DNA of 28,222 bases, taken from positions 1 to 28,222 of IMG/VR virus record IMGVR_UViG_3300013286_000044; one strand, written 5' to 3'. Origin of the DNA: a virus. The notes beneath the pieces are model-generated. The model was not told the origin of the DNA, did no database searches, and worked only from the letters and a program-made list of their open reading frames with translations. Below are positions 568 through 20,019 of the stretch, in pieces; positions within the stretch are counted from its first letter, which is position 1, and the number at the start of each line of letters is the position of its first letter. Both the position numbers and the translations under genes were made by a program.

Positions 568-3500
568 TTATTGCTTAGAATCTTTATACCATGTTCCAGG
601 AACAGCTTTTAAGAACTTAGCAACGTCAGTTGAATCGTTTAATATGTTTACTGTGCTATCCCAAGCAAATCCCTGGCGTTTTACCACAGTTACCTGTGTA
701 CCTATTGCTAATTTATTAGTCAATCTAACCTGTTTTGCAGATCCATTAACTGCGAAATCAGCATCTAATTGTATATCACCTTCTGGACTATCTGGTGCTT
801 GATTGACATTATGCACTTTGTATGGTCGTTTCTTCAATCTAATATTGCCTATGAAGAAAGTCCACTTGGCAGTATCAGAAGTAAAGACTGCGCTACTAGT
901 GTGAGCAGTCTTGCACTGATATGTGTAACTACCAATAGTAACTATAATTCCCACAGCATAAGTAGTGTTTGGTGTCCATACGGAACTAGTATCATACCCG
1001 CCAACAAACACATCAATATCATTGCTTTGTCCGTAGCCTGTGGGTATACTTGACGTATAACCTGTGGCGTATGACCAAGTTGTTGTCGCCTTGGTGGGTG
1101 TTATAATATTTAAATTAACTGTGTTTGTACCGTCGCTGATAACTTGCTCAGTGATGGTATTTTCAACATACGGTATTGTTTCGCTAGCGCCGATTTCCTG
1201 CACCCAAGAACCGGCATTATGTATCAATGGTGTTCCAGTTCCCAATGTACCCCTACGAAGTTTGCTTAATACATTACCGTTAATGGCAAAGAACTCAATA
1301 CGCTCTCCTCGGATCTCAATAATACCCGGTCTATTATTTGCAGTACTAGGCAAGTCAAATGTAGTTGCATCTGCAACGGTAATTGTAGCATCATTATAGT
1401 TCAAGGTCTTTGCTAGATATGTTTCTTTGTTGCGATTTAATCGTTTAAAGTGTACACGATTTAACATGTCTTTAAACTGCATATATGCGATTCCGCTGGT
1501 TAAAACATTACTACCATAAGTGATTAATGTGACTTTATCAGTTACCACAGTTCCAGATGCTAGGGTAATAGATACACGATCATCATTTAATTTATAATCA
1601 ATCGCAGGAGTTAATAATAGTCCGTTCTTAACGACCCACACATAATTGTCATTTATAATTGAACGATTTAATGCTAAAATACCGCCGGTGATTGACTTGT
1701 AATTGAAATAGGTTACAGTATCCGGAGTAAGTGCTAGGCTAGAAGAAACATTAATGTCAGTTCTTTGGATATCTAACACATCATGTTTGTATGAGCTGAT
1801 GACTTCAACAACGTCTGAACTAGTGTATATTTGTTTAAATGTAATTGAATTCAATGCCGGATTGTACGTATACTGTTGATCAGAAGCGATACTAGCAATC
1901 AATTGTTTTCCGACATACGTGTCATACACAGTTTGATTGATTGAAATTGTTATTCCGCTGAGATTAATAGTATAATCTGATCCGATAGATAATAATGTTC
2001 CGTTGGCTAATATTTTTATGTCACCGATAGAAACTGTATAAGGTAAGAATATAGTAGGATCGATCGTATAATCTAAAGTTTTATTTGCTATGGTAAAATA
2101 ACTATTATTAGGACCAGTTAATATTGACTGATTGACTCGAACAATAACATTAGTTTCGAGAGGTAAACGATCACCTATTGGATATTGTAATGCATAGGTA
2201 GTGGCACCATTAGTCGGCACTGATTCAGTTTTAGTAATAGCAAATGTCTGTTGATTTCCACTAACTATGATATAGTTAATAATAGAACCAGCAGTCGGCG
2301 GTGTGCCAAATCGTATTCCAATTCGATTGGCACTTACATATGTACTGTCTGTTTTAAATAATCTTGGGCTGATAGCAATACCATCAATATATATTAAACT
2401 AGTTACTGAATCTAACCAAGGAGCTTTAGTAATAAATTCCAGTGTCGAGCCGTCAGTGACAAAATAATCAATATCTAATATGTTGTCCCCGTTGAAACCA
2501 AGGCTGAATATCGATACTATACTGTTTGCGGTCGGTACTGATGTAAAGTTTATTCGTTTATTTTTATAATCAACTGTGTAATCTGTAGCATATTTTTTAA
2601 TTGTTGATCCAACTTTGACAACTACTGCTCGTGGACTTGAAGGTGTTTGTGTGATTATAAAAGCACTGTTAGATCCATCAGCGACATAATTGTCAACTTT
2701 GATATTTGCACTACCCGTAATCGGTTGATCAAATACTTTGATAGCAACTGTATCTACTACCTGTCCTGGAACTACTTCTTCAGGGGCAGGGCTGGTAGTT
2801 GGTGTAACTAATCCGTCGCCATCTACTAGTATATCGTCTGCTGACAAGCCAGTAGCAGTACTATAAGCAAGATTGCCGCCAGTTAGTGCAGTATCATAAT
2901 CAGTGTCTTGAGGTTTGATAGAACCATCGCTGGTACTTTGTCTCCAGATAAATCTGTCGCCTGCAAGTACTGTAAATGTATTTGGTATTGTAAATGTTGC
3001 TGTAGAACCACTTGCAGTTATCGACGTCATGATAGCACTAGAGTTAGTTTGACTGCCTGTTCCATAATTTGGATCATCAAGTCTCACAGGTTCGGTTTCT
3101 GTTATAATATTCAACTGTGTTCCGTTCAATAACGGAGTTGCTAGTGTCACGTTACCATTAGAGAATATTGAAAAATCGGTTGGTTGCCCTAGTGTTCGAG
3201 TAAAGACGATAGTTGATCCGTTTGGCACATTTAGATAAAGTATTTGACTTAATGTAACTGTATTTGTGCCGCTATTGATAGAGGTAACTGTAGTATTCAA
3301 GGAAAAGGCAGCAACAGCAGTACAGGTTACTATGTCACCAAGATTAATTTTTGTTGTAGAATTTACTCTTAATAATCTTGTTCCCGCAGTTCCTGACAAT
3401 GTTACTGGTGCTAGAGAAGTTTGTGTTGTACTTGCTGTAACTACCGGAGTTCTATTTGATGCAGTATAAGAATATTTTACATCTAGTCCATTGCTGGTAT

Positions 3501-6500
3501 ATGATAATGTACTGGTGCGTACATAGTAGATGTTTAAAAGTGTACTAGCTGACGGAGTATACGGTAAAGTAAATGAATGAACTCCTGCGGCCACTGTTAC
3601 AATATAATCGCTGTATGTGGCATCAAAAGTATCCCACTTGTCCGTGTAATACGGTAATGCTCCCCATCCTGCGGCAACATCAAATCCTAGACCATTGATA
3701 ATCACACCGCCATAATCGATACCAGACATCAATTGCGATAGATCGTTACCTATTTGTCCAGTTTGTGGATCGTAATAGAAATGTGTCCTATCGGCGGCAT
3801 TTAATAAATCCCAATCTTTGATGTAAGTTACTTTAATAACAGCTAAATTGACTGGTGCTGTAGCAAATGTGATTGTTCCAGAATAGCTAGTGTAGCCTTT
3901 AGTAGTTGATTTCTTAACTGCTAGAGTATATACATCTCTCAGCACTGGAATTTCACTAGTTTGTCCCGGAGATGTTATAGTAACAGAACTGTTACCAATC
4001 TTGATATCAGGCGACCATACTAGATTAAATTGTAGTTTAACGCCAGTACCAACAAATGTTTCAGTTTGCTGTAGTTGAGTGATATAGTATGACTGTGTTA
4101 ATCTGTCAAATTTAATTTTTACTAAAGAAGATCGAACAACGCCATGAGGCATATTAGCTTCAAGACTATTGCCGATAACCGCTACAATCCTTGCGGCGGT
4201 ACCAGTCGTTGATAATCCGCCATCTAATGTAACTGTTGGGGCTGACAAATAACCACTACCACGTGTTAGTAATACTATTCGATTTATTTTGCCATTGGCA
4301 AAAAATGCTCTTGCAGTCGCTCCGGTTCCCGAATCACTGGTAATTTTTACCACTGGCTCTGTTATATATCCGTCACCGGCGGTGACTATCCGCAGTTCAG
4401 TTACAATAAATCCTACGTTATCTAACCAATTTTTCCACGGATATGTTTTTATTGCGGCGTTGTCTGCTTGTATCTTACCATTGGTAATCCATGTGTTAAT
4501 GCTGACTATTTTATTATTATCGTATACTGCTGGAAGATCAAAGTCGCTTACCATTGTATTAGAATTATCTACTTTAGAATAGGCGCTGACATATTCACGA
4601 ACCTTGGTACGATACGGTTTTACTTCATTTACATATGCTTGGAAGTTTGATAAATTGTCAATTTGATAGTTAACCGGTTGGCTTAACTCTCCGATATTAT
4701 GTTGTGCCTTGACAAAACTTGTTTTAAAAATCCAATCAATATATACTTGTTCACTTAGTGCATATCTTACACTGGTAAAAAATAAATCTATATATTTTTG
4801 TTTAAGTCCGTCTGTTAGAATATCGTTCTTCAAGGCATTTAATACTATTCTTAATTCATTTATGGCTTCGCCGTCAAACACTGCGCCGTCAAAAGTAGAA
4901 TCATCGTAACCGATACTCGTATTAGCGAACTGATAAAAACTTGATTTAAATTGTATTGTACCTTTTTGCACACCCACAACATGGTAACTTTGTGTCCAAT
5001 CGATACTAGAAGAAATTGCATATCTGTATAGCAACTGCCAGCCATTTGTTGAACTAGTACGAACTAATACCAGTTTACCGATGATAGGATTGATAGAATT
5101 TAATTGATCAAACGTATCAACACCATAGTCGGCGGCTGAAAATTGATTATATCCAGTTGCATACCAATCAATATATTCCCAATAGTCTCTTACATCATAT
5201 GTTTTAGATTTAATTCTAGACCATACTTTTCCAGACGGATCATAAGAATAAATTGCCCATGCGCCTATAGATTGTGCATCACTGTAAACTAATACAGAAT
5301 AGTCTCTAACAATTGCCACAGTATTTGCATCATAACCTTCGCCAGCAGAAGAAATAGTTGCTCCGGTTATTTGCCCCAATGTGTTGATAGTTGCTCGGAC
5401 AACTGCTCCAATACCGCTACCAACAATACTAATGAACGGCGGATACAAATAACCAAGCCCAGCAGAATTGATTGTTATTCCTGTGATCCTTCCATCGACT
5501 ATCACGGGTGTAAGATCTGGACGTTTAAATGAGCCGATGCCAACGTATGGCAATTCAGCATCGGTATCAATAGTAGTATCATATAGCCCGCTAGGGAGAA
5601 TCTTTGTTCCATCTATTAATGTTACATAATCTGGGTATGCATCATACTTTTCTAAGTTTGTAAGATTTTTTACTTGAACGATTTGATTTTCAGACAAGAT
5701 AATATTAACCTGTTCCATAAACTGTTTAACTGCTTCAAAACGATTTACAAACATGCTCTGACGTGGTCTGTTTTCAATACCGTATCGTAATTTTATTGGT
5801 TGTTTTAAATCAGGAACTGTCAATCCATTAGAATCTCTACCACACAAACTATCAAACCATTTGTGTTCTATAGTTGTAGGTATTACAGTAGTTTCTTCAT
5901 CGCTGATAATTTTCCAATGACTGTGTACATTTCTATCAGTCGTATCAATAGTCCAATATTCAACCGACAATACAACACTATCTGCTGTTAGCATTGACTT
6001 AACGTTAGTAAGGTTAAATGAATCTATCCCGGTTAATGACAAATATTCATATCCCTGACCTCTTGGATTTCCAATTAATGCCGCAACTTCAGATGCTGAA
6101 ATATATCTACCTGAAACATTAGGCACAATAGTTTTATTTTTAACCCAGAAATAATAAACGCTTCTAAATGACTGGCTTGTAGTATCATATGTCTGGCTAA
6201 CGCTATATGCAGTATTTCCGTATAAACTCTTTCCGCTGATATTCTTAGCAAGGCCAGCTTCTGTATCAGCTAGATTGTCCCAATCAACGGGTTTATATAT
6301 ACTAGATACCCATTCATAGATATCAACCGTTGCTCCGGCTGCTAGTGTATTCCAATTGTTGGTTCTATAAACAATATCTTGATCATATGGATCGATAAAT
6401 TTTGTTGTTCTTAGATCCCACCACAGTTTTCCTACTTGCTTTGTAGTCCACGGTTTATCTACATTAAGAATTACCGTATCATTTCCCACAGTATATTCAG

Positions 6501-9500
6501 CTGGATCGTAGAACGAACTGAATGTTATTTCTTCGGCTGCTGGACCTGCTATTTTTCCCTGTAGAGGATCAATAACATCTAAATGCTTGATTAATTCGCC
6601 AGTAGTTCTATTGTATAAGAATGCTTTTTTAATTTTTGTAACATCTGGTTTTATACTTTCGGTATGTGTTTTTGTCCAGGTATATGTATTTGGCAATTTA
6701 TAATAATCATATACTGCACCAGAAGATAATGTTTGATCAATAGTAGTGGGTGCGCCGACAATAATATGATTCAATCCTACTGCAAAACCAGTACCATATC
6801 CATCATTCAATGTGTTCGTAGTTGATAACGATTCGCTAAAGACCCACTTGGATGAGTAGTTGTCATAGATATCCACCTTACCGCTATCGATTTGTCTAGT
6901 AATGAATGTAGTACTATTTTTATCAAATGTTGTTTGTGTTTGATCAAATGTCATCTCATTAATAGTATCACCGCGTGAGCTATAAATTATCAGTGTGCTG
7001 TCTGACATAAACTCAACTTTACTACCAAAAAGTCCAGAATTTTCAGGAATATGATTTATGATAGTTTGATACAGTGTATAAGAATTACTGGCACGCTTAT
7101 AAACATATACCGAACCCTGATTTACGCTAGTGTCGGTTGCCAATGTATCAGATACCACTAGATAAGTTCCATCACTTGAAAGTGCTATAGAAGTTCCAAA
7201 CGCAATACTGGTACCTATTAATGTTTGAGAAACTGTCTTGTATACTACTACAACTGCGCCTAAATTTGTCCCGTCAACTGCCGATAATGCATAGGCAGAT
7301 GTGTGATCACCACTGACTGATATAGTAGATCCAAAATTTCTTCCAGTTGGAATACTATACAGTGTTGACAGTTGATAGTTAGTAAAGAACCAACCGGCTA
7401 CACTAAATGTTAAAATACCAGATGGGGTGCTGTCGGGTTTGCCGCTTAATTGTAAAGTTTTAGAACCAATCACAACAGAAACAGTTTGTCCGCTAGTGAA
7501 TCCAGTTCCCGTGACAGTCATTCCTGGTAAAATTCCAACCGTAGATGTTACAGCAATAATACCACCAACGGTACCGACTGGGTTAAATGCTGTTGTAGCT
7601 TCACCGACTGTTCCAAAAGCAAAATTATATACTTTGCTAGTTCCAGATGCTCCAACTATAAGTTGATCTGTCAACCCATTAGTTGTTGAAGTAAAAAATC
7701 TTAAACTTGATCCGAATAATTCATTAACGGTCGGGATTGGACTGACAAAGGAATCTACTAAGGTATAGATGTTATCCGAATCTTTCTTATAAAGATGTAC
7801 TACACCCTGTGCTGATAATGTACTGTTTGATCCCGCATCATCGATAGGAATATAAGGTACGCTTTCCCAGTAGGTATTTGCGGCTTGGCCAGTTGCTGGC
7901 GCATGGTTCTGTGTGTTTACAAGTGCTCTATAAAAATAAACTGTTGATCCTGCACCAGTTACAGAAATTATATCACCGATTACATAAGATGTTAGACTGC
8001 TATATACACCCTTGTATCGTGTGTAAGCATACCCAACACCGGGACTACCGGTAGCTAGCCAGGTACCATCATTACTGAATGCCATTACAGTCGCATATAA
8101 ATTAGCCAATATTATTTGATTAGTAACATACGGCTTGGTTATTAGTTGACGTTGGATCCAAGATGTCTTAACACTTGCTTTATCCCAAGTTACAATATCA
8201 CCATTGGCCGTCGATATTCCAAGAATGTTCCCCGACGCATTAATAGCTACAAATCTACCATAGTTTAGGCCAGTAGCTGGTGTAGAATTAAACAATCTAG
8301 TTGACGCATATACAGGATCATATGTCCAAGTGGCCCAGGTACCGTTTCCGCTATCATCAGTCCATAGACGTTCGCCTGCGACGAGTTTTCGAGGAATGAT
8401 ATCATCGATATTATCAATAGATAAAGTTCTCTGACTTAGTAACCCATAGATAATTACTTTTGATTGTTCGGTAAATGTCGACCAATTAGATGGGGATGCG
8501 TTTACTGTAAATGAATTTAAGGTTACGCTGATTATTTTGTAAAAACCGTTTATGTTTGTTGTTTGAGCTATACCTACATAGGCGCCGACTTTTAATTGAA
8601 CAATGTCGCGTAGAGTTACAGTTAATAAATTGTTATTATAAGTTATGTCAATAACTGAGAAATTAACATCTGTAAATCTATATACATTCCAACTATTATC
8701 TTCAAATGCACAAGACACATATGCCCCATTGTTAAAATAAGTCACATCGTAATTTACAATATCTGAAATAGTATTCAATGCGACAAATACTTCAGATGCT
8801 CGCACATAGCCTGCGCTACGAAGATAGGGTTGATAATTTTCCAATACAGGCCACGGCTTACTAGTATAACCAAGCGGCTTTAAATAAACATTGTTTGGAA
8901 TTTGTCTAATAATGAAATCAAGTGCATTAGGATCTGGCTGGCCAACTAGATAAAATCCTTGCGGATTGATTTTAAATTGTGCTTCATCTAAAACAAATTC
9001 AATATTTTCAAAGGCGCCGCTGGCACCGTACTGTCCTAATCTAATCATCCATTCTTCTTTGAATGACAAACTTTCTTTGCCGTCAGCACTTAACACGTCA
9101 AACAATTTATTTAAACTGTTTTGAGTACCTTTCTCACGAATCATCCCTTGATAGAATTTAAATTCACTTACATCATCTTTGATAATATTATCAAGATATG
9201 AACGCTTTTGATAACCAATTAAATGCTGGGCGACCTTTTGTTGGGTCGCATCAAAGTTATCACTGTCTAAGCTATAGAAGTCGGTAAATTGTGCTGCCTT
9301 ATATGTCCAGTTAGGAATAAGTTTAGAAGAAGGGCGGCTGGTTAATTTTAGCCATTGGGTTTGATCTAATAGTTCTGCACCAGGTACAAAATTTCTGACA
9401 GGATCTGCTTGTAAATAAAATTGGCCGTACTTGACTACTTCCCCGATATCATAATCTTTCCATGGTTGCCATTCTGTTATTACAGCTTCGTCAAATATAA

Positions 9501-12500
9501 AACCTGGTGAATTAAATCCACCGTTCCAGCCAACACTTGCATAACCTGCTACTGTAATTCTTTCTTGTCTATATCCGCTAGCAGGACTGTAGATAGTGTC
9601 GTTAAACATGGTTGAATTGTTTAGTAATACTACTTGTTCTTTTTGTATTAGATAAAAACTTGCACCGTATATTCCGTCATTAGTTGTAGAGCTATAGCTA
9701 ACTGCATTATCGCTTCTAAAAGAATTAATATAAGATTTCGCTAACGGTGTACCATCTACTTTAAAAATTTCATATCCGTTAAAGGGATTACCAATATCGT
9801 CCACGACCGCAAGAGTGGTATTAAAGGTAATCTTATCAGCACTAGGACTTAGGCTAATAACTCCACTTCCGACTGTGCTTAGATTATCTAGCTTGACAAA
9901 ATTCGCTGGATCAAAAGTTGAGCTAGCTTCTATATTTCTTACAGAACGATAATAGTCCCCATTGTATTTTACAATTAAATTAAATGGTATAGCGACCTCT
10001 GGTCTCCAGTCAGTCCACTTGTCTGCACCCGAACTCCAATTTTGTGTAGTCCAGAACATAAATTCTTTAGCACTTGTTTCCCAATTAGTGACAGTTCCAA
10101 GATTTTTATTAAATTCATCAAATACAAAACCTTGATCTTTTAAATATTCACCATAACCTAGTAAAAAGTCAACTACTTCTTGAACGCTGGTAAATGTTGT
10201 ACTATATGGTACGATCAATTCTTTAGTACGATCCCATAATTTCCTAAAGGTAGCATCTCGGCCGCCGACGATAGGAAGACCACTAAGTGCTTGATAATAT
10301 TTAGATTCAAATGTTATAGTAGTTGTATGATTAACTAACACTCGATAGTATTGTTGGGCTAATTTAACTATAGTGCCTACAGCATAATTTCTTGATGCAG
10401 TCCATGTACTAAATTTTTCAGAGATTCCGCCAACATTGATAGTTACTCCAGATTGAGTATATTGATAATATTTAAAAAACGGTTGAGTTCGACTATATCC
10501 CTTAACTTCATACCCGGATGTTACTTTACTAACAATTACTCCACTATAGACAATTTTCTTAACAGGACTTGAACTATTAAGAATAATAGTATAATCATCT
10601 TGCGGTATAAAAACTACAGTTGACGATGCATAAGTTTTGGAATCTAGTAATAAATTAAATTTTTGTTTGCTAGTAAATCCGCCAACACGATAACTGATTT
10701 GTGGTGCTAGATTTAGTAAATCGTATTGATATGCCGAATAAGATTTTAAATTATCACTTAAAATATAGTTAAAAAGATAGTTTACAATACCTGCAGTTTG
10801 GATTCGATTATCACTAGAAGTCGCATTAGGCAATAAAACATCTGACGGTTTAATTCTTAAATTAGTTCCTGAATAAACTAGTTGACCTGCTAAATTGCGT
10901 ACGATTCTCGATCGATCTAATAGCACACCAAAAGTATTAGCCGGTCTTAATAACATAGATGTTAAAATAATACTGAATGGAAAATGACTGCTTCTTCTCC
11001 AGGCAGCTTCTACCGGCCCAACATCACCAAATACAAAATCACTATCAGTTTGTTGAGTAACAGTTCCTCTCGCAAGTCCCGAAACTAGTGGGCTTAATAG
11101 ATTGCCATTCTCATCTACCGGAATATACTTCATTAAGAAAGGCTTGATATATTTTGTTAATGTTATTGCCGGAACTCCTGGTTCACGGACTACTCCATCG
11201 GCAATGTCCTGCCACATGACTCTGTTATCTCGACTATAAGGTGCTGGACCATATACAGTAGTCCACCATGACGGTTGATTGGTAAACCCTAGCATTTCCC
11301 AAGGACAGATATGTGGGCGGTCAGTATCCAATAACCATCGATATATTCCTCTCCAATAACCTGGTACGGTGGTACCGTCAGGAGCAGAATGTCCTGCATA
11401 GTTATAGGTAAAGCTGTTATTGAGATTATAATTTAAAGGTTTAGTAAATTCTTTATCAACTAAGATAGCCCATTTATAAAAACTCGGTGCTAGGACATTG
11501 TTAAATTCGTCGATGCTATACGAATTAGTCCTATTATAACTAGGTATAGTATCAGCAATATCATAAATGCTAGTGTCGTAGTCGACCTTGATATTATTAT
11601 AGATGCGTTTTTCTAACTCTAATATCACAGCATCTCGATAGTCGTTGTATGCCGCCACTTGGCTGCCGTCGTGGCCTTGTATCATGTTAACGGGGGTAAC
11701 AAGACTCGTATCGAGATAAATCTTAGGCTCATATTTTGGCCATATTCCCAACTTAGTCGGTGTTTCGGGCACGAAAGAACCATCAGTATTATCATATTCT
11801 CTAATAGTGATAGTATCATTATTTTGTAATGGAACCGTATTAGTTAGAACGATAAATCCTTGTTGATCAAAAGTATAATCCTTACCGTACAATAATTGGA
11901 TACCAGTTTCAAACCCGTTAAGATATACGCCCACTGCTTGGTTTGATAAGGTGTCTAAACTAAACACTTTGGTCAACGGATATGATTTAATTCTATAATC
12001 AACAACAGTTAACACGGTTTGCACGATCGAACCGTATGGCACCATGTCGCTGAAATAGTATGGAAATGTTTTTGGTTTATCTTTGTTGATGCGATTTAAA
12101 ATCATATCAACTTGACCTACAGGATTTGAATCAACTCCTAGCTGACTTGCAATACTGATAAAATTTTTCTTAAAGTTACTATAATCTTCACGATTTTTTT
12201 CAATCGCCCGAACAATATTGTTAGTTTCACTTGTGGTATGATAGATAGATAAACTAGCTGGACCGCTATGCTGTACAAATTTAGTACCGTATGGCGTTAT
12301 ATTTCCCAGATCTCGCAAATTACTTGGACCTGGGTAGATTCCAGAGAACATTGATAAATTATCAACTATAGAACTAACATGATCAATAACTTCGCCAAGA
12401 GTAAAATCCCCTATCTCATCATTCATAGGATTATTTTGTAAGTTAATAGGAATTTCATAGTATCCATTACTATTAATTGGCTGTTTTGCAAACGTTTTAA

Positions 12501-14676
12501 TTGTTAATATATCTGTAGTTAAGATATTGGTTTTCAAAACAATTTGCTTATATACTGTTTTCTCAACCAATGACCAAAGGCTTGGATCTAAACGAATGCC
12601 ATTCACATATACTCTCACAATTAGATCTGAAAGATTATCAACTTTATCAAATATGTCTATTGGAAAATTATTAACTAGATTACCAGTTTTAAAAACACGT
12701 ACCCCTGCTTGAACTGTTGAGACCGACGATCGTTGCCAACCATTTTGATAAACCAAATTACCAGCGTAGTCCTGTGTTGTTAGATAACCTTTTTTAATAT
12801 ATAATGTGGTTAGAGCAGTGGTTGTAGATAATTTGTATTGAAAAGTATCGGTAGCCAATGTAAAATTAAAAACAATATCGCCTATGTTACTAATATTTTT
12901 ATAAGTTAAATTAAATCCAAGAGCTGTATCAGTTACCCCGGTTGATGCAATCTTATAACTAAAAATTGAAGTACCAATAAAATTAGTACCAGGATATGTA
13001 TCAGTATCGCCGTATGAAATTTTATTATTATCAACTATATCAAATAATGGAGGTTGATTTATCTTTGTTTTTTGTTGAGATAATTTCCAGGTAGATCCAT
13101 TATACCAATACATCTGTCCTTGATTTTTATTTCCTTGCTTGACCAAGACCGTATTACCTACTACTGGTTGTGTAACTAATTCTAAATGAATTTGTCTATA
13201 TCCTAGGATATTTGTAAATGTCACTCGATATATGTTATTCTTTACCAGTCGATCGGTATCAGCAGTAAACAATATTAATTGCCCCTGTACTAGCGGCACA
13301 GCGTCGACATTATATCCCCTACTACCTTCGATAGTAGAAAATACATCTTTGGTAAATGTATCAACAACATCTACATCGCTAACTGCCAGTGTTCCAAAAT
13401 TGAATAATTTTAAATCGGCAGTAAATTCTATAATAGGTCGAACTGCTCGAGCAGTTTGATCCAATGTGATCGTGTTGCCTAAGTAGGCTGCAACAGCCTT
13501 GATTGTATCTTTATGGAACCATCGATTATATCTACTCCAAGGATTATGATCTCTACTACCACGATTTATTGTTAGGTAATCCTTGGTTGAAGCAAAATTA
13601 GATGAATCACTAAATGGTTGACTGTCAAAAGGAATACTGTCAAAATATACTGCTTCTGTTACTGTGTATGTGGTAATAACTTCAAGGACATTTTTATTAA
13701 TTAATTTGATAGAGGAACCCACACCTTCAACATAAAATTCTCCAGTGGCATATTTTGCAGGTAAAACATTTCCACCAAATGACACTTTCATTCCGTTTGA
13801 TAATGCTGTACCGTTTGATAATGTATAGGTCTTCTTTCCTAGTATGTCTGCTACCACATCGATATACGTATCTTCTTTGATATCAAGAATTTTTATAACG
13901 CCACCTAAGTTTCGATCAGACTCACTTTGATAGTACAACGTGCTGGGAGCGTTAGCTGGTATTTCAAACTTGATTGTTCCATCCACTACACCGCTGCCGG
14001 TCACTCCGTCAGTGTATCGATTAAATCGACCTATGGTTCTATTAATCTTAATGCTGAAAGGATTTCCTGGACTTGTAATTTCAAATATATATGTTTGACC
14101 TCTATATAAAGTTATTACAGGATTTGGCGTAAGCCCATCGGGAGTAAACAGATATTGATAGTCCGCACCCTCAGTCTGCAGTTGAACAGTGTATGTACTT
14201 GTTATGGCCTTTTGTTGGCCAAATATTCTGATTGTATCGGGGCCGTATGGGAGCCAGTAGTAATTTTGAAAGTTAACAAATTTATCCCAGTCGATGTGCG
14301 GATCCCAGCTGTAAAATTCTTGAGAATTTAAACGTGCATGATCATCAGTATTGCCGCCAAAAACCCCAATCTGATTAATATAATCTTGGTAGTCTTTATA
14401 AAATGTAGGATTACCTAGCGCATCTTTTACAGTGAAACTAGGTTCAAATTGATAATTTTGACGTTGGGCCGTAGGAGCATCGATATAAACGTCGTCTTTC
14501 ATTGCAGCCTTGGCAGTTTTTCTGCCAATGAACCCATTGATCTTTTTAACAGCTCCCGGCTGTACTAGTTGATCAACAGTAGCTTGTAAGAATTTCTTAT
14601 TCGCATCAGTTTTATAAAAATTTGGAAGAAAATTTACAGAAACTTTATTAGTACCATTTGGATTATTACTGGCCAT
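568..14676 (-). CDS. Giant baseplate-region virion protein, 4702 aa, in the gp7 position
   Basis: This single uninterrupted frame encodes 4702 residues and occupies half the window. Its ATG overlaps the gp6 stop codon (TAATG), with GGAG about 10 nt upstream, so it is translationally coupled to gp6. In T4 the gene after gp6 is gp7, a wedge protein of 1032 residues. Homology to gp7 is inferred from position only. Visible parts, in approximate residues: an N-terminal region (1-150) rich in aromatic and Asn residues, containing WDKFVNFQNYYWLPYGPD; CBM5/12-like motifs near 1430, 1565, 1740, 2230 and 4570; an FG-GAP-like beta-propeller at 2130-2660; GxGY repeats at 3050-3100 and 3425-3490; a beta-repeat ladder at 4015-4390; and an IEIRGERIEFF...LRRGTLGT segment near 4440-4490. 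There is no signal peptide, membrane helix or clear enzymatic motif. It probably forms the baseplate periphery or a host-contacting fibre-like structure. Confidence 0.85.
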   Translation of the reverse strand: MASNNPNGTNKVSVNFLPNFYKTDANKKFLQATVDQLVQPGAVKKINGFIGRKTAKAAMKDDVYIDAPTAQRQNYQFEPSFTVKDALGNPTFYKDYQDYINQIGVFGGNTDDHARLNSQEFYSWDPHIDWDKFVNFQNYYWLPYGPDTIRIFGQQKAITSTYTVQLQTEGADYQYLFTPDGLTPNPVITLYRGQTYIFEITSPGNPFSIKINRTIGRFNRYTDGVTGSGVVDGTIKFEIPANAPSTLYYQSESDRNLGGVIKILDIKEDTYIDVVADILGKKTYTLSNGTALSNGMKVSFGGNVLPAKYATGEFYVEGVGSSIKLINKNVLEVITTYTVTEAVYFDSIPFDSQPFSDSSNFASTKDYLTINRGSRDHNPWSRYNRWFHKDTIKAVAAYLGNTITLDQTARAVRPIIEFTADLKLFNFGTLAVSDVDVVDTFTKDVFSTIEGSRGYNVDAVPLVQGQLILFTADTDRLVKNNIYRVTFTNILGYRQIHLELVTQPVVGNTVLVKQGNKNQGQMYWYNGSTWKLSQQKTKINQPPLFDIVDNNKISYGDTDTYPGTNFIGTSIFSYKIASTGVTDTALGFNLTYKNISNIGDIVFNFTLATDTFQYKLSTTTALTTLYIKKGYLTTQDYAGNLVYQNGWQRSSVSTVQAGVRVFKTGNLVNNFPIDIFDKVDNLSDLIVRVYVNGIRLDPSLWSLVEKTVYKQIVLKTNILTTDILTIKTFAKQPINSNGYYEIPINLQNNPMNDEIGDFTLGEVIDHVSSIVDNLSMFSGIYPGPSNLRDLGNITPYGTKFVQHSGPASLSIYHTTSETNNIVRAIEKNREDYSNFKKNFISIASQLGVDSNPVGQVDMILNRINKDKPKTFPYYFSDMVPYGSIVQTVLTVVDYRIKSYPLTKVFSLDTLSNQAVGVYLNGFETGIQLLYGKDYTFDQQGFIVLTNTVPLQNNDTITIREYDNTDGSFVPETPTKLGIWPKYEPKIYLDTSLVTPVNMIQGHDGSQVAAYNDYRDAVILELEKRIYNNIKVDYDTSIYDIADTIPSYNRTNSYSIDEFNNVLAPSFYKWAILVDKEFTKPLNYNLNNSFTYNYAGHSAPDGTTVPGYWRGIYRWLLDTDRPHICPWEMLGFTNQPSWWTTVYGPAPYSRDNRVMWQDIADGVVREPGVPAITLTKYIKPFLMKYIPVDENGNLLSPLVSGLARGTVTQQTDSDFVFGDVGPVEAAWRRSSHFPFSIILTSMLLRPANTFGVLLDRSRIVRNLAGQLVYSGTNLRIKPSDVLLPNATSSDNRIQTAGIVNYLFNYILSDNLKSYSAYQYDLLNLAPQISYRVGGFTSKQKFNLLLDSKTYASSTVVFIPQDDYTIILNSSSPVKKIVYSGVIVSKVTSGYEVKGYSRTQPFFKYYQYTQSGVTINVGGISEKFSTWTASRNYAVGTIVKLAQQYYRVLVNHTTTITFESKYYQALSGLPIVGGRDATFRKLWDRTKELIVPYSTTFTSVQEVVDFLLGYGEYLKDQGFVFDEFNKNLGTVTNWETSAKEFMFWTTQNWSSGADKWTDWRPEVAIPFNLIVKYNGDYYRSVRNIEASSTFDPANFVKLDNLSTVGSGVISLSPSADKITFNTTLAVVDDIGNPFNGYEIFKVDGTPLAKSYINSFRSDNAVSYSSTTNDGIYGASFYLIQKEQVVLLNNSTMFNDTIYSPASGYRQERITVAGYASVGWNGGFNSPGFIFDEAVITEWQPWKDYDIGEVVKYGQFYLQADPVRNFVPGAELLDQTQWLKLTSRPSSKLIPNWTYKAAQFTDFYSLDSDNFDATQQKVAQHLIGYQKRSYLDNIIKDDVSEFKFYQGMIREKGTQNSLNKLFDVLSADGKESLSFKEEWMIRLGQYGASGAFENIEFVLDEAQFKINPQGFYLVGQPDPNALDFIIRQIPNNVYLKPLGYTSKPWPVLENYQPYLRSAGYVRASEVFVALNTISDIVNYDVTYFNNGAYVSCAFEDNSWNVYRFTDVNFSVIDITYNNNLLTVTLRDIVQLKVGAYVGIAQTTNINGFYKIISVTLNSFTVNASPSNWSTFTEQSKVIIYGLLSQRTLSIDNIDDIIPRKLVAGERLWTDDSGNGTWATWTYDPVYASTRLFNSTPATGLNYGRFVAINASGNILGISTANGDIVTWDKASVKTSWIQRQLITKPYVTNQIILANLYATVMAFSNDGTWLATGSPGVGYAYTRYKGVYSSLTSYVIGDIISVTGAGSTVYFYRALVNTQNHAPATGQAANTYWESVPYIPIDDAGSNSTLSAQGVVHLYKKDSDNIYTLVDSFVSPIPTVNELFGSSLRFFTSTTNGLTDQLIVGASGTSKVYNFAFGTVGEATTAFNPVGTVGGIIAVTSTVGILPGMTVTGTGFTSGQTVSVVIGSKTLQLSGKPDSTPSGILTFSVAGWFFTNYQLSTLYSIPTGRNFGSTISVSGDHTSAYALSAVDGTNLGAVVVVYKTVSQTLIGTSIAFGTSIALSSDGTYLVVSDTLATDTSVNQGSVYVYKRASNSYTLYQTIINHIPENSGLFGSKVEFMSDSTLIIYSSRGDTINEMTFDQTQTTFDKNSTTFITRQIDSGKVDIYDNYSSKWVFSESLSTTNTLNDGYGTGFAVGLNHIIVGAPTTIDQTLSSGAVYDYYKLPNTYTWTKTHTESIKPDVTKIKKAFLYNRTTGELIKHLDVIDPLQGKIAGPAAEEITFSSFYDPAEYTVGNDTVILNVDKPWTTKQVGKLWWDLRTTKFIDPYDQDIVYRTNNWNTLAAGATVDIYEWVSSIYKPVDWDNLADTEAGLAKNISGKSLYGNTAYSVSQTYDTTSQSFRSVYYFWVKNKTIVPNVSGRYISASEVAALIGNPRGQGYEYLSLTGIDSFNLTNVKSMLTADSVVLSVEYWTIDTTDRNVHSHWKIISDEETTVIPTTIEHKWFDSLCGRDSNGLTVPDLKQPIKLRYGIENRPRQSMFVNRFEAVKQFMEQVNIILSENQIVQVKNLTNLEKYDAYPDYVTLIDGTKILPSGLYDTTIDTDAELPYVGIGSFKRPDLTPVIVDGRITGITINSAGLGYLYPPFISIVGSGIGAVVRATINTLGQITGATISSAGEGYDANTVAIVRDYSVLVYSDAQSIGAWAIYSYDPSGKVWSRIKSKTYDVRDYWEYIDWYATGYNQFSAADYGVDTFDQLNSINPIIGKLVLVRTSSTNGWQLLYRYAISSSIDWTQSYHVVGVQKGTIQFKSSFYQFANTSIGYDDSTFDGAVFDGEAINELRIVLNALKNDILTDGLKQKYIDLFFTSVRYALSEQVYIDWIFKTSFVKAQHNIGELSQPVNYQIDNLSNFQAYVNEVKPYRTKVREYVSAYSKVDNSNTMVSDFDLPAVYDNNKIVSINTWITNGKIQADNAAIKTYPWKNWLDNVGFIVTELRIVTAGDGYITEPVVKITSDSGTGATARAFFANGKINRIVLLTRGSGYLSAPTVTLDGGLSTTGTAARIVAVIGNSLEANMPHGVVRSSLVKIKFDRLTQSYYITQLQQTETFVGTGVKLQFNLVWSPDIKIGNSSVTITSPGQTSEIPVLRDVYTLAVKKSTTKGYTSYSGTITFATAPVNLAVIKVTYIKDWDLLNAADRTHFYYDPQTGQIGNDLSQLMSGIDYGGVIINGLGFDVAAGWGALPYYTDKWDTFDATYSDYIVTVAAGVHSFTLPYTPSASTLLNIYYVRTSTLSYTSNGLDVKYSYTASNRTPVVTASTTQTSLAPVTLSGTAGTRLLRVNSTTKINLGDIVTCTAVAAFSLNTTVTSINSGTNTVTLSQILYLNVPNGSTIVFTRTLGQPTDFSIFSNGNVTLATPLLNGTQLNIITETEPVRLDDPNYGTGSQTNSSAIMTSITASGSTATFTIPNTFTVLAGDRFIWRQSTSDGSIKPQDTDYDTALTGGNLAYSTATGLSADDILVDGDGLVTPTTSPAPEEVVPGQVVDTVAIKVFDQPITGSANIKVDNYVADGSNSAFIITQTPSSPRAVVVKVGSTIKKYATDYTVDYKNKRINFTSVPTANSIVSIFSLGFNGDNILDIDYFVTDGSTLEFITKAPWLDSVTSLIYIDGIAISPRLFKTDSTYVSANRIGIRFGTPPTAGSIINYIIVSGNQQTFAITKTESVPTNGATTYALQYPIGDRLPLETNVIVRVNQSILTGPNNSYFTIANKTLDYTIDPTIFLPYTVSIGDIKILANGTLLSIGSDYTINLSGITISINQTVYDTYVGKQLIASIASDQQYTYNPALNSITFKQIYTSSDVVEVISSYKHDVLDIQRTDINVSSSLALTPDTVTYFNYKSITGGILALNRSIINDNYVWVVKNGLLLTPAIDYKLNDDRVSITLASGTVVTDKVTLITYGSNVLTSGIAYMQFKDMLNRVHFKRLNRNKETYLAKTLNYNDATITVADATTFDLPSTANNRPGIIEIRGERIEFFAINGNVLSKLRRGTLGTGTPLIHNAGSWVQEIGASETIPYVENTITEQVISDGTNTVNLNIITPTKATTTWSYATGYTSSIPTGYGQSNDIDVFVGGYDTSSVWTPNTTYAVGIIVTIGSYTYQCKTAHTSSAVFTSDTAKWTFFIGNIRLKKRPYKVHNVNQAPDSPEGDIQLDADFAVNGSAKQVRLTNKLAIGTQVTVVKRQGFAWDSTVNILNDSTDVAKFLKAVPGTWYKDSKQ

Positions 14677-17600
14677 TAAGTTGTTGCTCCGTAATTTGCG
14701 CTGGTTATATTTTGATTCGAGTTTACTGAATTCAATGCAGAACCTGTTACTGTTCTAATATTTGCACCGGTGATACCTGAAATAATTTCAATGTTATCAA
14801 CTGTTGCACCGTTGATAAAAATCTGATTGCTTGGACACGAAATCTGAAACAGACTGCCAAAGTATAAATCGCTTTGTAATGGTACTATAACAAAGTTTGT
14901 AATATCCGGTGCTAGCTTATTCATCACATAAGTTGATAATTCTGTAAAATAAAATGTATCTCCAAAGTTCCAATTATCTAATGCAAAGAAAGTATTGATT
15001 GCAGTTACTACCCTTGCCTTAATGTCATTGTCTGATACCACGCTATTAGAATTTTTAGTTACCTTGAATGTTGCTTGAACTGCTCTATCGGCAGTAGATC
15101 CGAACAACACTTTATATGATACCGGGTGATATACAATTTCATCGCTTATCGATTTAATTAAATTTAAACTTGGTGCCAGTAAATTATACAGTTCATCTGA
15201 ACTAGGAGGCAGGGGTAGGTTCACTAGATTATTAGATAACCACTGTCTATAAGATATATCGTAATTCTTAGTTAAAATATAAACATCAACTATATTGCTT
15301 GCACTTGGATCTATGCGAGAATTATAATCAGCACTGTGAGTATACTGGAATTTTAAATTGTCTCTACCTATAAACACTTTATAGTCTAAAGTAGGAACTA
15401 ATTCTGCTGTTGATAAATTTAATTTCTTAACTACTTTGGTATCGGCAAAATAAAAATACTGACCATTTGGATAAGTTGTTAAACTGGTTAATACAGATGA
15501 TTGTGTAGAAGCAATCACTACTGTATTTTTTGTATTACTGATATATTGATATTCTTCTTGTCCATCATTTAACAAGTAACGTTGTTGAATAATATATTTT
15601 GCTAAGGCATTAGATGTAGGTGCGACAATATTTGAGAATGTTTCAGGATCCTGAATTGCACCATTGTCAGTATCTTCACTAAAGCTAATTATTATTTTTT
15701 TATTATCAATATATCCGTCAACTCCTACATATTCTTTTACCACTTTCCATTGTTGATCTCTAGTAAATGCTAAAGTAGCATCCGGTTGAGTGTTTATGCT
15801 CAGCACGTTAATTTGATCCGAAACTACTTTTCCTGTAGAACTGTCATATATAGGATCGGTACTATCAAAATAAAAGCGAACTTGTTTATCACTTTCAAAC
15901 ACATATCTTAATAATCGTGTGGTAACTGTATAAAATACGTTATTTGTAGTAAACAATAATAACCAGCTGGCATCCTGTTGAGTATTTGTCGTATCTCCCT
16001 GATTTCCTAGACTAAAAGCAGATATTGTATTAAGATTAGCTTCGTATACGATTTGCCACGCTTGTATCGATGCATTGTAGCGAAGGCCAAATGGTTTGTT
16101 TGCAAAAATTAAATCTATCATTGTTGTAATAACAGACGAACTAATAGATGTTGTCAACTGCGGCAATAGCTTTGAAAGAATTGAACCGGATGGTATCGGT
16201 TGATTCAAAGTTATAGGCCCAAGCCCTGTACTTAATTTGCCAGTATTATTAGCAGTACCATCGCCGCTGACGCTAACCACTTCGGCCCAGATGTAATTAG
16301 ATGCGCCCGGAACTGTTGCTGTTCCCGTAACCAATGCGTTGGCATTTTTTGTGTTAAAGTATTTTCCGGTAGGTGCTGTAAATTTAATCAGCGCACCTTT
16401 AGTAAGATATCTCAAGTCAGTGTTTGTATATGATCCAACTTTATATGTGCCCGCATCAACTACATCACCCACGTAACCAGTTGATGACACTGAATCAGAT
16501 GTAGTTTTATACCATGCGATATTTAAACTTGCTGTTAAGAAATTGACAAAATTACTGTAATAAAAATTAGCCAAGTCTGCACTGGCTAGCAGTGTTGTTA
16601 TTCGATTAGATATAACTGCCTGTATGTCAGTTTTAGTTACGTAATTAAATTGAATACCCGTATCAGTGTAAAAATCCTGATAAATTACTCCGTCATCAGC
16701 GAAAAGATTTGTACTACTGTACTTTCCCGTAGGGTCTGATAAATCAAAATATCTACTGATACCGCTACTGGTTCTATTGACACTTTTAACTTTGGCTACC
16801 TGTTGTGATGCGGCCAGTGGACTAATATTATAGTCCTCGCCTGTAATCATACGATTCTGTGTATAGTAAGTTTGTGGAGCATTAGTTTTTATACTTGCAT
16901 TATCTTCTGTTGCTGTGGCATTGCTTACTGATGATGCTAGACTCAATGCAAGTGTTAACGCTTCGGCTTTTCCGGTGGCAGATGTATATGGAATAGTTAT
17001 ACTGATATTTCTAATATCAGCAGGATTAATAACATAGGACAATGTGTTGCTTACTCTATAATAGGTTCTAAACGATCCTAGAGGAAGATTTCCAAACGTG
17101 CCATCACTAAATGCCAGACTAATTTGATCATTTACACGAGTTACTACAGTATAGATATTTTTAATATTCTTATTTAAACTGTTATAAATGACATTATTAC
17201 CAGTTGTAGAACTTACTTTAGTCCACAATTCGCTTTCAGCACCATCTTGATTTAGTTTATACAACCATACATCGCTGTTGTTGATATTTGGTGTTGCCAC
17301 ATCGATGCTTTCGTTGCTAGTCGGTTGGGAAACTGTAAATTGTCCTGCTTGCAAATTACCTTGGGTAAAATTAAAAAAGAATCCGGTACCGGCGCTGCCT
17401 GCACCATGGCCGTCTTCTCTGTACACACATGCCGGTTTATTGCCAACGGATGGAGCTTCTTCATAAATGTAATTTTGACCTTTAAATGTAGTGCTGGTAA
17501 TCTCGAAGTTCATTGAACGACCGGCGACAGAACTGGTAAATCCGAAGATAGGAACGTTGGTATTGGTTGCATTAAATCTGTATTGACTTGTTGGAATTCC

Positions 17601-18140
17601 ATAAATCGTGTCTGATGCTGCCGGGCTACCAAATTGTTGCGATTGTGGTAGGGCCGCATTAATAACCTTGAAGAATTGATCATACCAATTAGTATTGCTG
17701 GGATCATTCCAAGAAATAATTTGATTAGCAACATTACGACCGTTACTGTCAATGACTGTTTCTGTAGTCTGTGCTGTTATGACTTTTAGTAAACCATTGG
17801 CCGCAATATTTCGCTTGGCATTGTAGCTGATTAATTGAGCTAGACGCAACACACTATCGCGTCGGCTGGCTAGTTCAAGAAAGTTTTCACGAGCATTTAG
17901 GTCAACACGGAAAGCAATACTTTGGCCCAGGAATGCTATAAGGTCGATTAGAGCAAGATATTCGCTAGATTCGATGTAATCGTTGAAATCTTCAGGATAG
18001 TTGGTCCGTAGATACTGGATCATAGTTCTGCGTAAATTCTCAAAATCGTAACTTTGAAAATCAGCATTTCGGAAACTCTGATAGATCTTTTTCCAATCTT
18101 CCGATATTAGTAAATTATTTTGTCTATCTGTTGAACTCAT
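14676..18140 (-). CDS. 6: Baseplate wedge protein gp6
   Basis: A 1154-residue protein starting MSSTDRQNNLLISEDWKKIY. The N-terminal 110 residues are the conserved gp6 head, with an acidic helical stretch (residues 40-60), then ALIDLIAFLGQSIAFRVDLN and ENFLELASRRDSVLRLAQL. A GHGAGSAGTGFFFNFTQG segment lies near residues 245-262, and a PVSYKVLFG / AVQATFKV region near 1010-1030 resembles the baseplate J / gp6 C-terminal core. gp6 dimers form the ring joining wedges in the T4 baseplate. T4 gp6 is 660 residues, so this version is much enlarged, mostly in its middle and C-terminal half. Its stop overlaps the ATG of the giant gene. A 50-nt gap with a late-type box separates it from gp25. The ribosome binding site is weak (only GGGA is visible). 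The family call is strong; the function of the added sequence is unknown. Confidence 0.88.
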   Translation of the reverse strand: MSSTDRQNNLLISEDWKKIYQSFRNADFQSYDFENLRRTMIQYLRTNYPEDFNDYIESSEYLALIDLIAFLGQSIAFRVDLNARENFLELASRRDSVLRLAQLISYNAKRNIAANGLLKVITAQTTETVIDSNGRNVANQIISWNDPSNTNWYDQFFKVINAALPQSQQFGSPAASDTIYGIPTSQYRFNATNTNVPIFGFTSSVAGRSMNFEITSTTFKGQNYIYEEAPSVGNKPACVYREDGHGAGSAGTGFFFNFTQGNLQAGQFTVSQPTSNESIDVATPNINNSDVWLYKLNQDGAESELWTKVSSTTGNNVIYNSLNKNIKNIYTVVTRVNDQISLAFSDGTFGNLPLGSFRTYYRVSNTLSYVINPADIRNISITIPYTSATGKAEALTLALSLASSVSNATATEDNASIKTNAPQTYYTQNRMITGEDYNISPLAASQQVAKVKSVNRTSSGISRYFDLSDPTGKYSSTNLFADDGVIYQDFYTDTGIQFNYVTKTDIQAVISNRITTLLASADLANFYYSNFVNFLTASLNIAWYKTTSDSVSSTGYVGDVVDAGTYKVGSYTNTDLRYLTKGALIKFTAPTGKYFNTKNANALVTGTATVPGASNYIWAEVVSVSGDGTANNTGKLSTGLGPITLNQPIPSGSILSKLLPQLTTSISSSVITTMIDLIFANKPFGLRYNASIQAWQIVYEANLNTISAFSLGNQGDTTNTQQDASWLLLFTTNNVFYTVTTRLLRYVFESDKQVRFYFDSTDPIYDSSTGKVVSDQINVLSINTQPDATLAFTRDQQWKVVKEYVGVDGYIDNKKIIISFSEDTDNGAIQDPETFSNIVAPTSNALAKYIIQQRYLLNDGQEEYQYISNTKNTVVIASTQSSVLTSLTTYPNGQYFYFADTKVVKKLNLSTAELVPTLDYKVFIGRDNLKFQYTHSADYNSRIDPSASNIVDVYILTKNYDISYRQWLSNNLVNLPLPPSSDELYNLLAPSLNLIKSISDEIVYHPVSYKVLFGSTADRAVQATFKVTKNSNSVVSDNDIKARVVTAINTFFALDNWNFGDTFYFTELSTYVMNKLAPDITNFVIVPLQSDLYFGSLFQISCPSNQIFINGATVDNIEIISGITGANIRTVTGSALNSVNSNQNITSANYGATT

Positions 18141-18190: not shown

Positions 18191-18634
18191 TTACACAACC
18201 AACAGGCCATTAGCTTGATCGAAAGTTAATCGTAAACTTTGCTGTATATTATAGGGAATAAATTTTAAAGTACATTGTATCTGTATTCCTTGACCGTAAC
18301 TTGTAACTATAACAGTTTCTGCTTTGACCCGAGGATCGTAGTTGATAATAGTGTTGACATTTTGTAATATTAGGTTTTTAATATCTTCAGTCAATGGTTC
18401 AAACAACAAGTCCCAGATTATACAACCAAACGTAGGATTCATAAGTCGTTCACCTTGTCTAGTATTAAAGTGATTGAGTATGTCTTGTTTGATTAATTCA
18501 AAATCAAAAAGATTATAATTTTCAGTAGACGCATTGATACTACTGAATCCTTTATACATCTTAGAGCCGCGATTATCAGGCTGACTAGTGGCCGGAAGTG
18601 TTATTTTATTGTATAAGTTTGCGTTTGAGCTCAT
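18191..18634 (-). CDS. 25: Baseplate wedge protein gp25 (T4 gp25 / GpW-gp25 family)
   Basis: A 147-residue protein close in length to T4 gp25 (132 residues). The core reads FDFELIKQDILNHFNTRQGE, then RLMNPTFGCIIWDLLFEPLT and NTIINYDPRVKAETV. These are the hallmark gp25 features: the RxGER-like turn, the MxPxFGxxxWdlLFEp motif and the late NYDPRV. In T4 and related contractile systems (TssE in type VI secretion), gp25 sits in the wedge core with gp6 and gp53 and helps initiate the sheath. The ATG at 18634 overlaps the gp5 stop codon by 1 nt (TAATG), with AAGGA just upstream, indicating translational coupling. No residues look lost. Confidence 0.93.
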   Translation of the reverse strand: MSSNANLYNKITLPATSQPDNRGSKMYKGFSSINASTENYNLFDFELIKQDILNHFNTRQGERLMNPTFGCIIWDLLFEPLTEDIKNLILQNVNTIINYDPRVKAETVIVTSYGQGIQIQCTLKFIPYNIQQSLRLTFDQANGLLVV

Positions 18635-20019
18635 TATTGATTTCCTTGTTCAGGAGGCGGATCTCTCCTAAAAGTGTCGATACTTGTTGTATATTTCTTC
18701 CAATATGTTGCTGTCGGTTCAACAGGAGTTGCCACAGCTTCTGTCTTAGACGGAAGGTGTGCTGTTGGATCTAGATGTTCATGTCCGGCCCAGGGTTCAT
18801 GTTGCGGAATTCTCGACGCTTTTGGGGCCGTGGCGGCAGACGGGCCATTCATGTGTATTTCAGTGGCCGTTTCTACATGATTTTTACCGCTTCTGATATT
18901 AGTCGTACCAGTCGCTGTAAGATTATTGTCGCCCACAGAGTTAAGATTAAAATTACGTTTTGCTGTAAGATTAATATCTCGATCAGCAGTGAAATTAATA
19001 TCATTTTCGCTATGCACACTTATACTATCTTCAGCATAAATGTCTATTTTTCCATTGCTGGTTAATTCTATCCAGGTGGTTCCCTTGGCATTTCCAATGT
19101 AGATCAAGTCTTCGCTATTATGCAAAAGTATTTGATGACCGGTACGAGTACGTATTCTTACAAGTTCATTGTGTGGTATATTGACATTGCCGCCTGTTTC
19201 ATTTTGTTCTATTGCCGCATACTCGGGAGGTCCTTCATTAGCAAATGTCTTACGAAGAAATGCCGAGTCGCCATCATCCATTACGAAAGATGATCCGCCT
19301 AATCTGCTGATAAAAGCAGATTCAACCTGTGCATCTTTTGGGCCTATTTTTCCTTTAGGAGCATTAACATTTTTATCTATCGGTCCTGGAGTACTAATAC
19401 CAAATACCATACTGGGCGCTTCTCTGCGGGCACTGCTAGTAGTAAGGCCCCTAGTATCATCTTTATCAAGACCTTGAATTTGTAAATGACCATATTGCGG
19501 ATGGATTGGTTTTAAATAATTTGTTGGTTCTATGCTCGTAGTTACTAATCTTTTATTATATTCGGCAACAGGTGATCGAAAACTTTCCCCAGCTACAGCG
19601 GCTGTGGCTGCAATACCTGGAACCATGAAGTTCATGTTTTCATCAGGAACGCATCCTATCCAAAAACCACGCTTGACATCACCTTGGATAAAAATTACCA
19701 TTACAGTGGTACCAACGTCTGGTGGCACCATCCACATACCATAACTTTTTTGTGTATTGTTATAGTTGTTAGACCCGTCGGTTGGATTTTCGGCATTGCC
19801 GCCGAGAAATTTTGTAGCAGTGACTCCATAAAACGGGCTGAGGTAACTGACTGTACGCAATTCACTGCTGTCAGTATTATTTCCAATAGGGCGTAATAAC
19901 TCAACCTGTAGAGTTCCCATAAAGCTAGGATCTTGATGACTGATCACTTTGGCCAAGAACGGGCCCGGATCCGGAGCAGGTGGAGTCGTTGAACTATGAA
20001 AGCCTTGTGCTGATGCCAT
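18634..20019 (-). CDS. 5: Baseplate central spike gp5 (OB-fold and beta-helix, no lysozyme domain)
   Basis: A 461-residue VgrG/gp5-type spike protein. An N-terminal OB-fold (about residues 18-140) contains PFLAKVISHQDPSFMGTLQV and, further on, MWMVPPDVGTTVMVIFIQGD and FWIGCVPDENMNFMVPG. A conserved SRLGGSSFVMDDGD segment lies near 240-253, followed by GHQILLHNSEDLIYIGNA near 300. The region 325-395 is built of about nine 8-residue units (GKIDIYAE, DSISVHSE, NDINFTAD, RDINLTAK and so on), typical of the triple-stranded gp5 beta-helix. The C-terminal tail has HEPWAGHEHLDP. T4 gp5 has 575 residues with a lysozyme domain between the OB-fold and the helix; none is present here. The ATG has GGAAAG 9 nt upstream and a late-type box before it. 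It probably trimerises on the hub and punctures the envelope mechanically. Confidence 0.9.
   Translation of the reverse strand: MASAQGFHSSTTPPAPDPGPFLAKVISHQDPSFMGTLQVELLRPIGNNTDSSELRTVSYLSPFYGVTATKFLGGNAENPTDGSNNYNNTQKSYGMWMVPPDVGTTVMVIFIQGDVKRGFWIGCVPDENMNFMVPGIAATAAVAGESFRSPVAEYNKRLVTTSIEPTNYLKPIHPQYGHLQIQGLDKDDTRGLTTSSARREAPSMVFGISTPGPIDKNVNAPKGKIGPKDAQVESAFISRLGGSSFVMDDGDSAFLRKTFANEGPPEYAAIEQNETGGNVNIPHNELVRIRTRTGHQILLHNSEDLIYIGNAKGTTWIELTSNGKIDIYAEDSISVHSENDINFTADRDINLTAKRNFNLNSVGDNNLTATGTTNIRSGKNHVETATEIHMNGPSAATAPKASRIPQHEPWAGHEHLDPTAHLPSKTEAVATPVEPTATYWKKYTTSIDTFRRDPPPEQGNQ

Follow-up and report, generated by a model that had tools for sequence, protein, structure and literature searches.

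The question raised by this locus is whether a gene of 4,702 codons, located where T4 has the gene for gp7 (1,032 aa), encodes a single protein and whether that protein does the work of gp7 in the baseplate. The gene occupies positions 568 to 14676 (minus strand) of the window (i.e., the whole stretch of DNA analyzed, a linear IMG/VR fragment of 28,222 bases). Its product, a giant member of PHROG 10938, would be a virion protein of the baseplate wedge.

One intact gene among baseplate genes

The window encodes one intact protein of 4,702 aa. As an earlier note on this DNA had claimed, the frame is open throughout, from an ATG start codon to a TAA stop codon, and the computed mass of the product (520.3 kDa; pI 5.4) agrees with the half megadalton proposed there. 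The remaining five frames over the gene contain 233 to 549 stops each, and the codon-position G+C periodicity is steady across its full length. Coupling to gp6 was also borne out: the ATG shares one base with the gp6 stop codon (TAATG), and a GGAG motif lies just 5' of the start. The gene is under strong purifying selection along its whole length (dN/dS, 0.05 to 0.10 in each 470-codon block), as measured against its two closest relatives (88% and 86% amino acid identity), which align across all 4,702 codons. A frame opened by chance or by misassembly, for which the origin of the sequence (i.e., a 28-kb metagenomic contig) might speak, is extremely improbable, since intact frames of the same length in independent contigs and the low dN/dS values place this frame far beyond chance. 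The same intact frame is present in isolated phages and in many independent contigs; thus, the assembly artifact that the earlier note had listed as a potential refutation is ruled out by the relatives and the dN/dS values. Searches of the window for tandem repeats and tRNAs were negative.

The genes on the minus strand are arranged in the order 337-aa virion protein, gp53-like protein, 753-aa virion protein, gp5-like protein, gp25, gp6, and giant protein. The gp53-like wedge protein (100 aa; positions 22320 to 22622) matches phrog_7145, and PF11246 just under the cutoff. The gp5-like hub/spike protein (461 aa; positions 18634 to 20019) was recognized by profile matches, the gp25-like sheath initiator (147 aa; positions 18191 to 18634) by PF04965 (50.6 bits), and the gp6-like wedge subunit (1,154 aa; positions 14676 to 18140) by phrog_10646 (993 bits) and phrog_219 (70 bits). 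The claimed T4 gp7 position holds both here, where the giant gene follows gp25 and gp6, and in the neighborhoods of its homologs, nearly all of which have the homolog directly after gp6 (e.g., PA5oct, RaK2, 121Q, GAP32, and Atu_ph07). In Vibrio phage 2.275.O, the annotation of the gene upstream of the homolog names only a CBM5/12 module; in SCTP-2, the upstream gene encodes a 3,096-aa hypothetical protein.

Several other features of the window were noted. No Pfam lysozyme domain was matched in its 461-aa gp5-like protein, whereas the gp5 proteins of RaK2-type phages (~890 aa) have a lysozyme-domain match. On the plus strand, positions 23722 to 27357 carry genes resembling those for the late sigma factor gp55, SbcD/gp47, and SbcC/gp46, a neighborhood shared with PA5oct and GAP32. 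Since the gp47 frame, taken at its longest, begins within the gp55 frame, the true gp47 start is probably later. A 142-aa ORF (positions 27627 to 28055) matches PHROG 447 ("NAD synthetase") together with several homing-endonuclease families, and the PHROG label may be wrong. Located 3' of the giant gene is a 173-aa ORF (positions 1 to 519) that is cut by the window end and matches PHROG 11259 (function unknown). This neighbor differs from that in RaK2/121Q/GAP32-type phages, where the giant gene is followed immediately by a ClpA-like ATPase gene on the opposite strand (L005:23901-26210, L010:21905-24193, and L012:22960-25254). This ATPase could have a part in folding or assembly of the giant protein.

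A widespread family of virion proteins

In a profile search, PHROG 10938 ("virion structural protein") matched the giant protein in five stretches (1,086 bits; E = 0). Because this PHROG and many isolated phages already hold homologs, we classify the protein, on the basis of sequence similarity, as a member of a known, widespread, unnamed, and poorly described jumbo-phage family rather than as a new kind of protein. Members of the PHROG (PA5oct gp355, RaK2 ORF070w, 121Q gp582, GAP32_230, CBB_236, Atu_ph07 gp180, and Phosso 294; 3,300 to 4,555 aa) resemble the window protein in their colinear conserved blocks and their location directly 3' of gp6, while identities in the aligned blocks are roughly 21 to 38%. 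The window protein differs in its longer middle insertion and its five CBM5/12-like modules, compared with zero to two in the PHROG members.

Homologs occur in at least 57 phage records. The jumbo phages detected by tblastn infect Pseudomonas, Agrobacterium, Sinorhizobium, Salicola, Vibrio, Erwinia, Serratia, Xanthomonas, Escherichia, Salmonella, Klebsiella, Pectobacterium, and Cronobacter, and their homologs vary in size (Atu_ph07, 4,449 aa; Phosso, 4,555 aa; PA5oct, 3,857 aa; SCTP-2, 3,807 aa; Vibrio phage 2.275.O, 3,771 aa; RaK2/121Q type, 3,323 to 3,342 aa). Colinear BLAST blocks were obtained between the giant protein and 11 phages, and alignment shows that it has colinear homologs among the virion proteins of PA5oct, RaK2/121Q-type, and Atu_ph07-type phages. 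A near-DNA search of phage records with the window yielded no match. One scan of IMG/VR with the first 1,925 residues as the query confirmed 533 relatives, and a complete ORF of 4,442 to 5,251 aa was present in 36 of the best 80. After the addition of more distant relatives, the complete homologous frames numbered 139, of which 136 consist of a single ORF of 3,127 to 5,251 aa (lengths bounded by the amount of flanking sequence taken) and three are shorter. Of these three, L118 looks like a natural 2,613-aa form with a new ATG gene behind it, while L053 and L212 are frameshifted in the variable middle and carry on in a different frame (L053:17980-18100 and L212:13220-13340), which may reflect sequencing error, decay, or a natural split.

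Virion proteomics, which the earlier note had proposed as a check, is available for orthologs, and these were detected in the virions of PA5oct, phAPEC6, and CBB. PA5oct gp355 is marked ESI-MS/MS in its GenBank record. For phAPEC6 gp245 (381.88 kDa), which is listed beside the wedge protein gp244, 17 peptides were reported (PMC7247149), and 21 peptides of CBB_236 were reported from the virion (PMC5259590). The tail map available for phAPEC6 is at ~25 Å (PMC7247149). On the basis of its size and neighbor, phAPEC6 gp245 is the ortholog of 121Q gp582 (the two phages are one species); the CBB_236 gene is the giant homolog. The peptide coverage of the orthologs (7 to 8%) is too low to show an intact protein in the particle. 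The giant protein might be a polyprotein, i.e., the product of one gene that is cut into several virion proteins after assembly, as its great length, the ClpA-like ATPase gene that comes next in several phages, and the interrupted frames of L118, L053, and L212 would allow. We consider this improbable, given that 136 of the 139 complete frames are single ORFs of >3,000 aa, that purifying selection is uniform, and that the authors of the RaK2 paper saw no evidence of cleavage in the proteins discussed there, among which the giant protein is not named (PMC3622015). In the open-access papers on RaK2, Atu_ph07, AP-J-162, MIJ3, and PA5oct, the protein appears at most as a table entry ("structural protein"), and we found no open-access paper describing the giant protein or calling it gp7.

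Conserved blocks and candidate sugar-binding modules

The conserved N-terminal block of the giant protein (aa 11 to 141; positions 14254 to 14646, minus strand, as for all features below) is detectable by BLAST in the giant proteins of isolated phages, and the main conserved block (aa 260 to 1912; positions 8941 to 13899) is colinear in, e.g., Atu_ph07, Phosso, PA5oct, RaK2, SCTP-2, and 121Q. Two more conserved blocks are colinear (aa 2660 to 2995, positions 5692 to 6699; aa 3128 to 3390, positions 4507 to 5295), the second with a helical pair. Lineage-specific regions are aa 143 to 260, aa 1912 to 2660, and most of the C-terminal 1,300 residues; the less conserved C-terminal part (aa 3400 to 4702; positions 571 to 4479) includes T7-tail-fiber-N-like units (weak matches). 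The variable insertion (aa 2000 to 2660; positions 6697 to 8679) has a weak FG-GAP match at aa 2492 to 2526 and is possibly a beta-propeller; propeller-blade matches, also weak, lie at aa 2620 to 2666. Beta repeats of the GGxGY type form two clusters (aa 3061 to 3115, positions 5332 to 5496; aa 3425 to 3501, positions 4174 to 4404), and repeats similar to those of the second cluster are found in cyanophage gp7.

Five CBM5/12-like modules were recognized. The first (aa 1420 to 1470; positions 10267 to 10419) resembles the chitin-binding module of a chitin-oligosaccharide deacetylase (Z = 6.9), the second (aa 1552 to 1600; positions 9877 to 10023) the tail spike of phage Milano (8fqc_P1; Z = 7.1), and the third (aa 1734 to 1782; positions 9331 to 9477) the A-1(L) tail fiber (Z = 5.5). 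The fourth lies at aa 2223 to 2278 (positions 7843 to 8010), and the fifth (aa 4565 to 4606; positions 859 to 984) contains the best Pfam stretch (aa 4567 to 4597). The whole protein scores 31.1 bits against PF02839 (cutoff, 26.2), and at least one such module is present in 117 of the 136 full-length relatives (maximum, seven). Structure prediction in pieces, another check proposed earlier, was run with AF2 for aa 960 to 2010 (pLDDT, 84) and aa 2620 to 3440 (pLDDT, 86) and gave CBM5/12-type folds at modules 1 and 2, which superimpose on CBM5/12-type chains over 44 to 45 residues (Z = 6.9 to 7.1; rmsd, 1.2 to 1.3). VIA-align returned nothing above a Z of 3.0 for the model of aa 2620 to 3440, and a PDB profile search with the conserved blocks produced no matches beyond CBM-type modules and, close to the GGxGY repeats, a single weak hit to a tailspike.

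The CBM5/12-like, GGxGY, T7-tail-fiber-N-like, and possible FG-GAP modules are typical host-facing modules, and the part of the giant protein at the baseplate periphery probably touches surface sugars. Of the two functions that the earlier note had offered (i.e., host contact or a large baseplate periphery), a large modular periphery was upheld, while host contact is only suggested by the five CBM5/12-like modules.

Proposed relation to gp7 and probable place in the baseplate wedge

In T4, each of the six wedges consists of a gp6-type dimer and one gp7-type subunit. T4 gp7 resembles the giant protein in its gene location after gp6 with overlapping stop and start codons and in a KG-containing helical segment, but it is 4.6 times shorter and has no direct profile similarity to the giant protein, and T4 also has gp8 to gp12. 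BLAST, HMM, and hhalign comparisons of the giant protein with seven T4-type gp7 sequences gave no significant match. PF21427, PF21428, PF21456, PF09684, and PF23786 did not match the giant protein or the region, and these models have a narrow reach (T4 also escapes PF09684, and the cyanophages escape PF21428). Foldseek and VIA-align searches with the model of aa 960 to 2010 were dominated by CBM-type modules and returned no gp7 structure.

An indirect connection is provided by the giant gp7 proteins of the cyanophages S-SZBM1 (6,619 aa, annotated as "baseplate wedge initiator"; L007:2218-22077) and P-RSM6 (8,573 aa; L009:5146-30291), which share with the window protein the slot after gp25 and gp6, a KGT core, and GGxGY beta repeats. 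T4 gp7 (aa 640 to 800) clearly matches S-SZBM1 gp7 (aa 641 to 790; P = 95.7%, E = 9.5e-9), and other alignments of T4 gp7 with the cyanophage core gave a P of 92% (E = 6.5e-7). The cyanophage core in turn matches aa 1780 to 1944 of the giant protein (positions 8845 to 9339), a gp7-like helical domain, with a P of 82%, an E of 1e-5, and a score of 36.6; the controls reached at most 19.7 (150 column shuffles), 12.4 (reversed profile), and at most 24.0 (windows of the same block not reaching the KGT region). Both proteins have a helix, then KGT, and then a second helix, and the K and G are invariant in 58 of 58 aligned giant sequences. Values were lower for a smaller alignment pair of the cyanophage core and the giant protein (A6 versus A8; P = 24%, E = 8.5e-4), for A6 versus the mixed T4 and cyanophage alignment A7 (P = 1.2%, probably because A7 is ragged), and for the whole giant block (aa 960 to 2010) versus cyanophage gp7 (P = 5%). 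The earlier note had also suggested comparing the N terminus with gp7; in this comparison, the match of aa 11 to 141 to the N-terminal helix-turn-helix of the core bundle in cyanophage and T4 gp7 was within the shuffle range.

We conclude with moderate confidence that aa 1780 to 1944 are related to the cyanophage gp7 core, and since that core clearly matches T4 gp7, the giant protein would be related to T4 gp7 as well. The gp7 identity that had been proposed from position thus gained a bridge through cyanophage gp7, while no direct similarity to T4 gp7 could be detected. The cyanophage proteins keep a second, C-terminal T4 gp7 motif (HPxGF; P = 62%, E = 7.5e-5; also seen with PF23786), for which the giant protein gave no detectable match. 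In the cyanophage proteins, the T4 gp7 core is split by beta-rich insertions into two motifs ~2,800 residues apart.

A rather unlikely alternative is that the giant protein is a peripheral adhesin or a tail-fiber-like baseplate protein and that an unrecognized small protein fills the gp7 slot. Most of its length consists of beta-rich modules seen in tail fibers and spikes (CBM5/12, T7-tail-fiber N-like, and GGxGY), and direct gp7 homology is not detectable, but its place after gp6 is conserved and the gp7-core match is specific to aa 1780 to 1944. Moreover, searches with Tail_P2_I, Gp7_helical, and Baseplate_wedge in eight complete jumbo genomes bearing the giant gene revealed no convincing alternative gp7/GpI protein. 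Pfam models detected gp25 in all eight genomes; gp8 was not found, gp9/10 gave only two weak subthreshold matches, and gp11 gave nothing above the cutoff (one match ran across stop codons). As positive controls, T4 was detected for all four families and two cyanophages were detected for gp8 and gp9/10. S-SZBM1 and P-RSM6 keep gp8- and gp9/10-like genes, unlike the giant-bearing jumbo genomes. These absences, including that of gp7 families, are supportive only, since the models are narrow; the missing gp8, gp9/10, and gp11 may reflect a limit of the Pfam models, and PA5oct gp358 is noted as gp10-like in its record.

We therefore favor, with a probability of about 60%, the reading that the giant protein forms the baseplate part that gp7 forms in T4 and works like gp7. 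It would be the third, gp7-type subunit of a jumbo-myovirus baseplate wedge, enlarged to about 520 kDa by inserted beta-rich modules. A virion would have six copies, which together would add about 3.1 MDa. Each copy would join a gp6 dimer via the helical core, and its remaining ~4,500 residues would make up the outer baseplate, substituting for gp8, gp9, gp10, and gp11 of T4. Binding of surface sugars and attachment of fibers would fall to the CBM5/12-like modules together with the variable C-terminal repeats. Small gp7 counterparts are known from other phages: one copy per wedge accompanies the gp6-type dimer in XM1, where this protein, gp17 (242 aa), also holds tail spikes (PMC10457771), and gp32 of A-1(L) associates with a gp6-type dimer and anchors spikes or fibers (PMC10966104). 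As compared through these papers, both small subunits have this role in common with the one proposed for the giant protein, although XM1 gp17 is about 20 times smaller.

More tentatively, a jumbo-myovirus lineage may have dispensed with gp8, gp9, gp10, and gp11 and may build its baseplate periphery and sugar-contacting surface mostly from one gp7-type polypeptide of 3,000 to 5,000 residues, with gp7 of cyanophages having grown by insertions along similar lines. In size, members of the family rank with the largest tailed-phage proteins, and their usual annotation is only "virion structural" or "hypothetical." Assigning the family a probable position within the wedge opens its role to experiment; the assignment also suggests that subunits ranging from 242 to over 4,000 residues can occupy one and the same wedge position.
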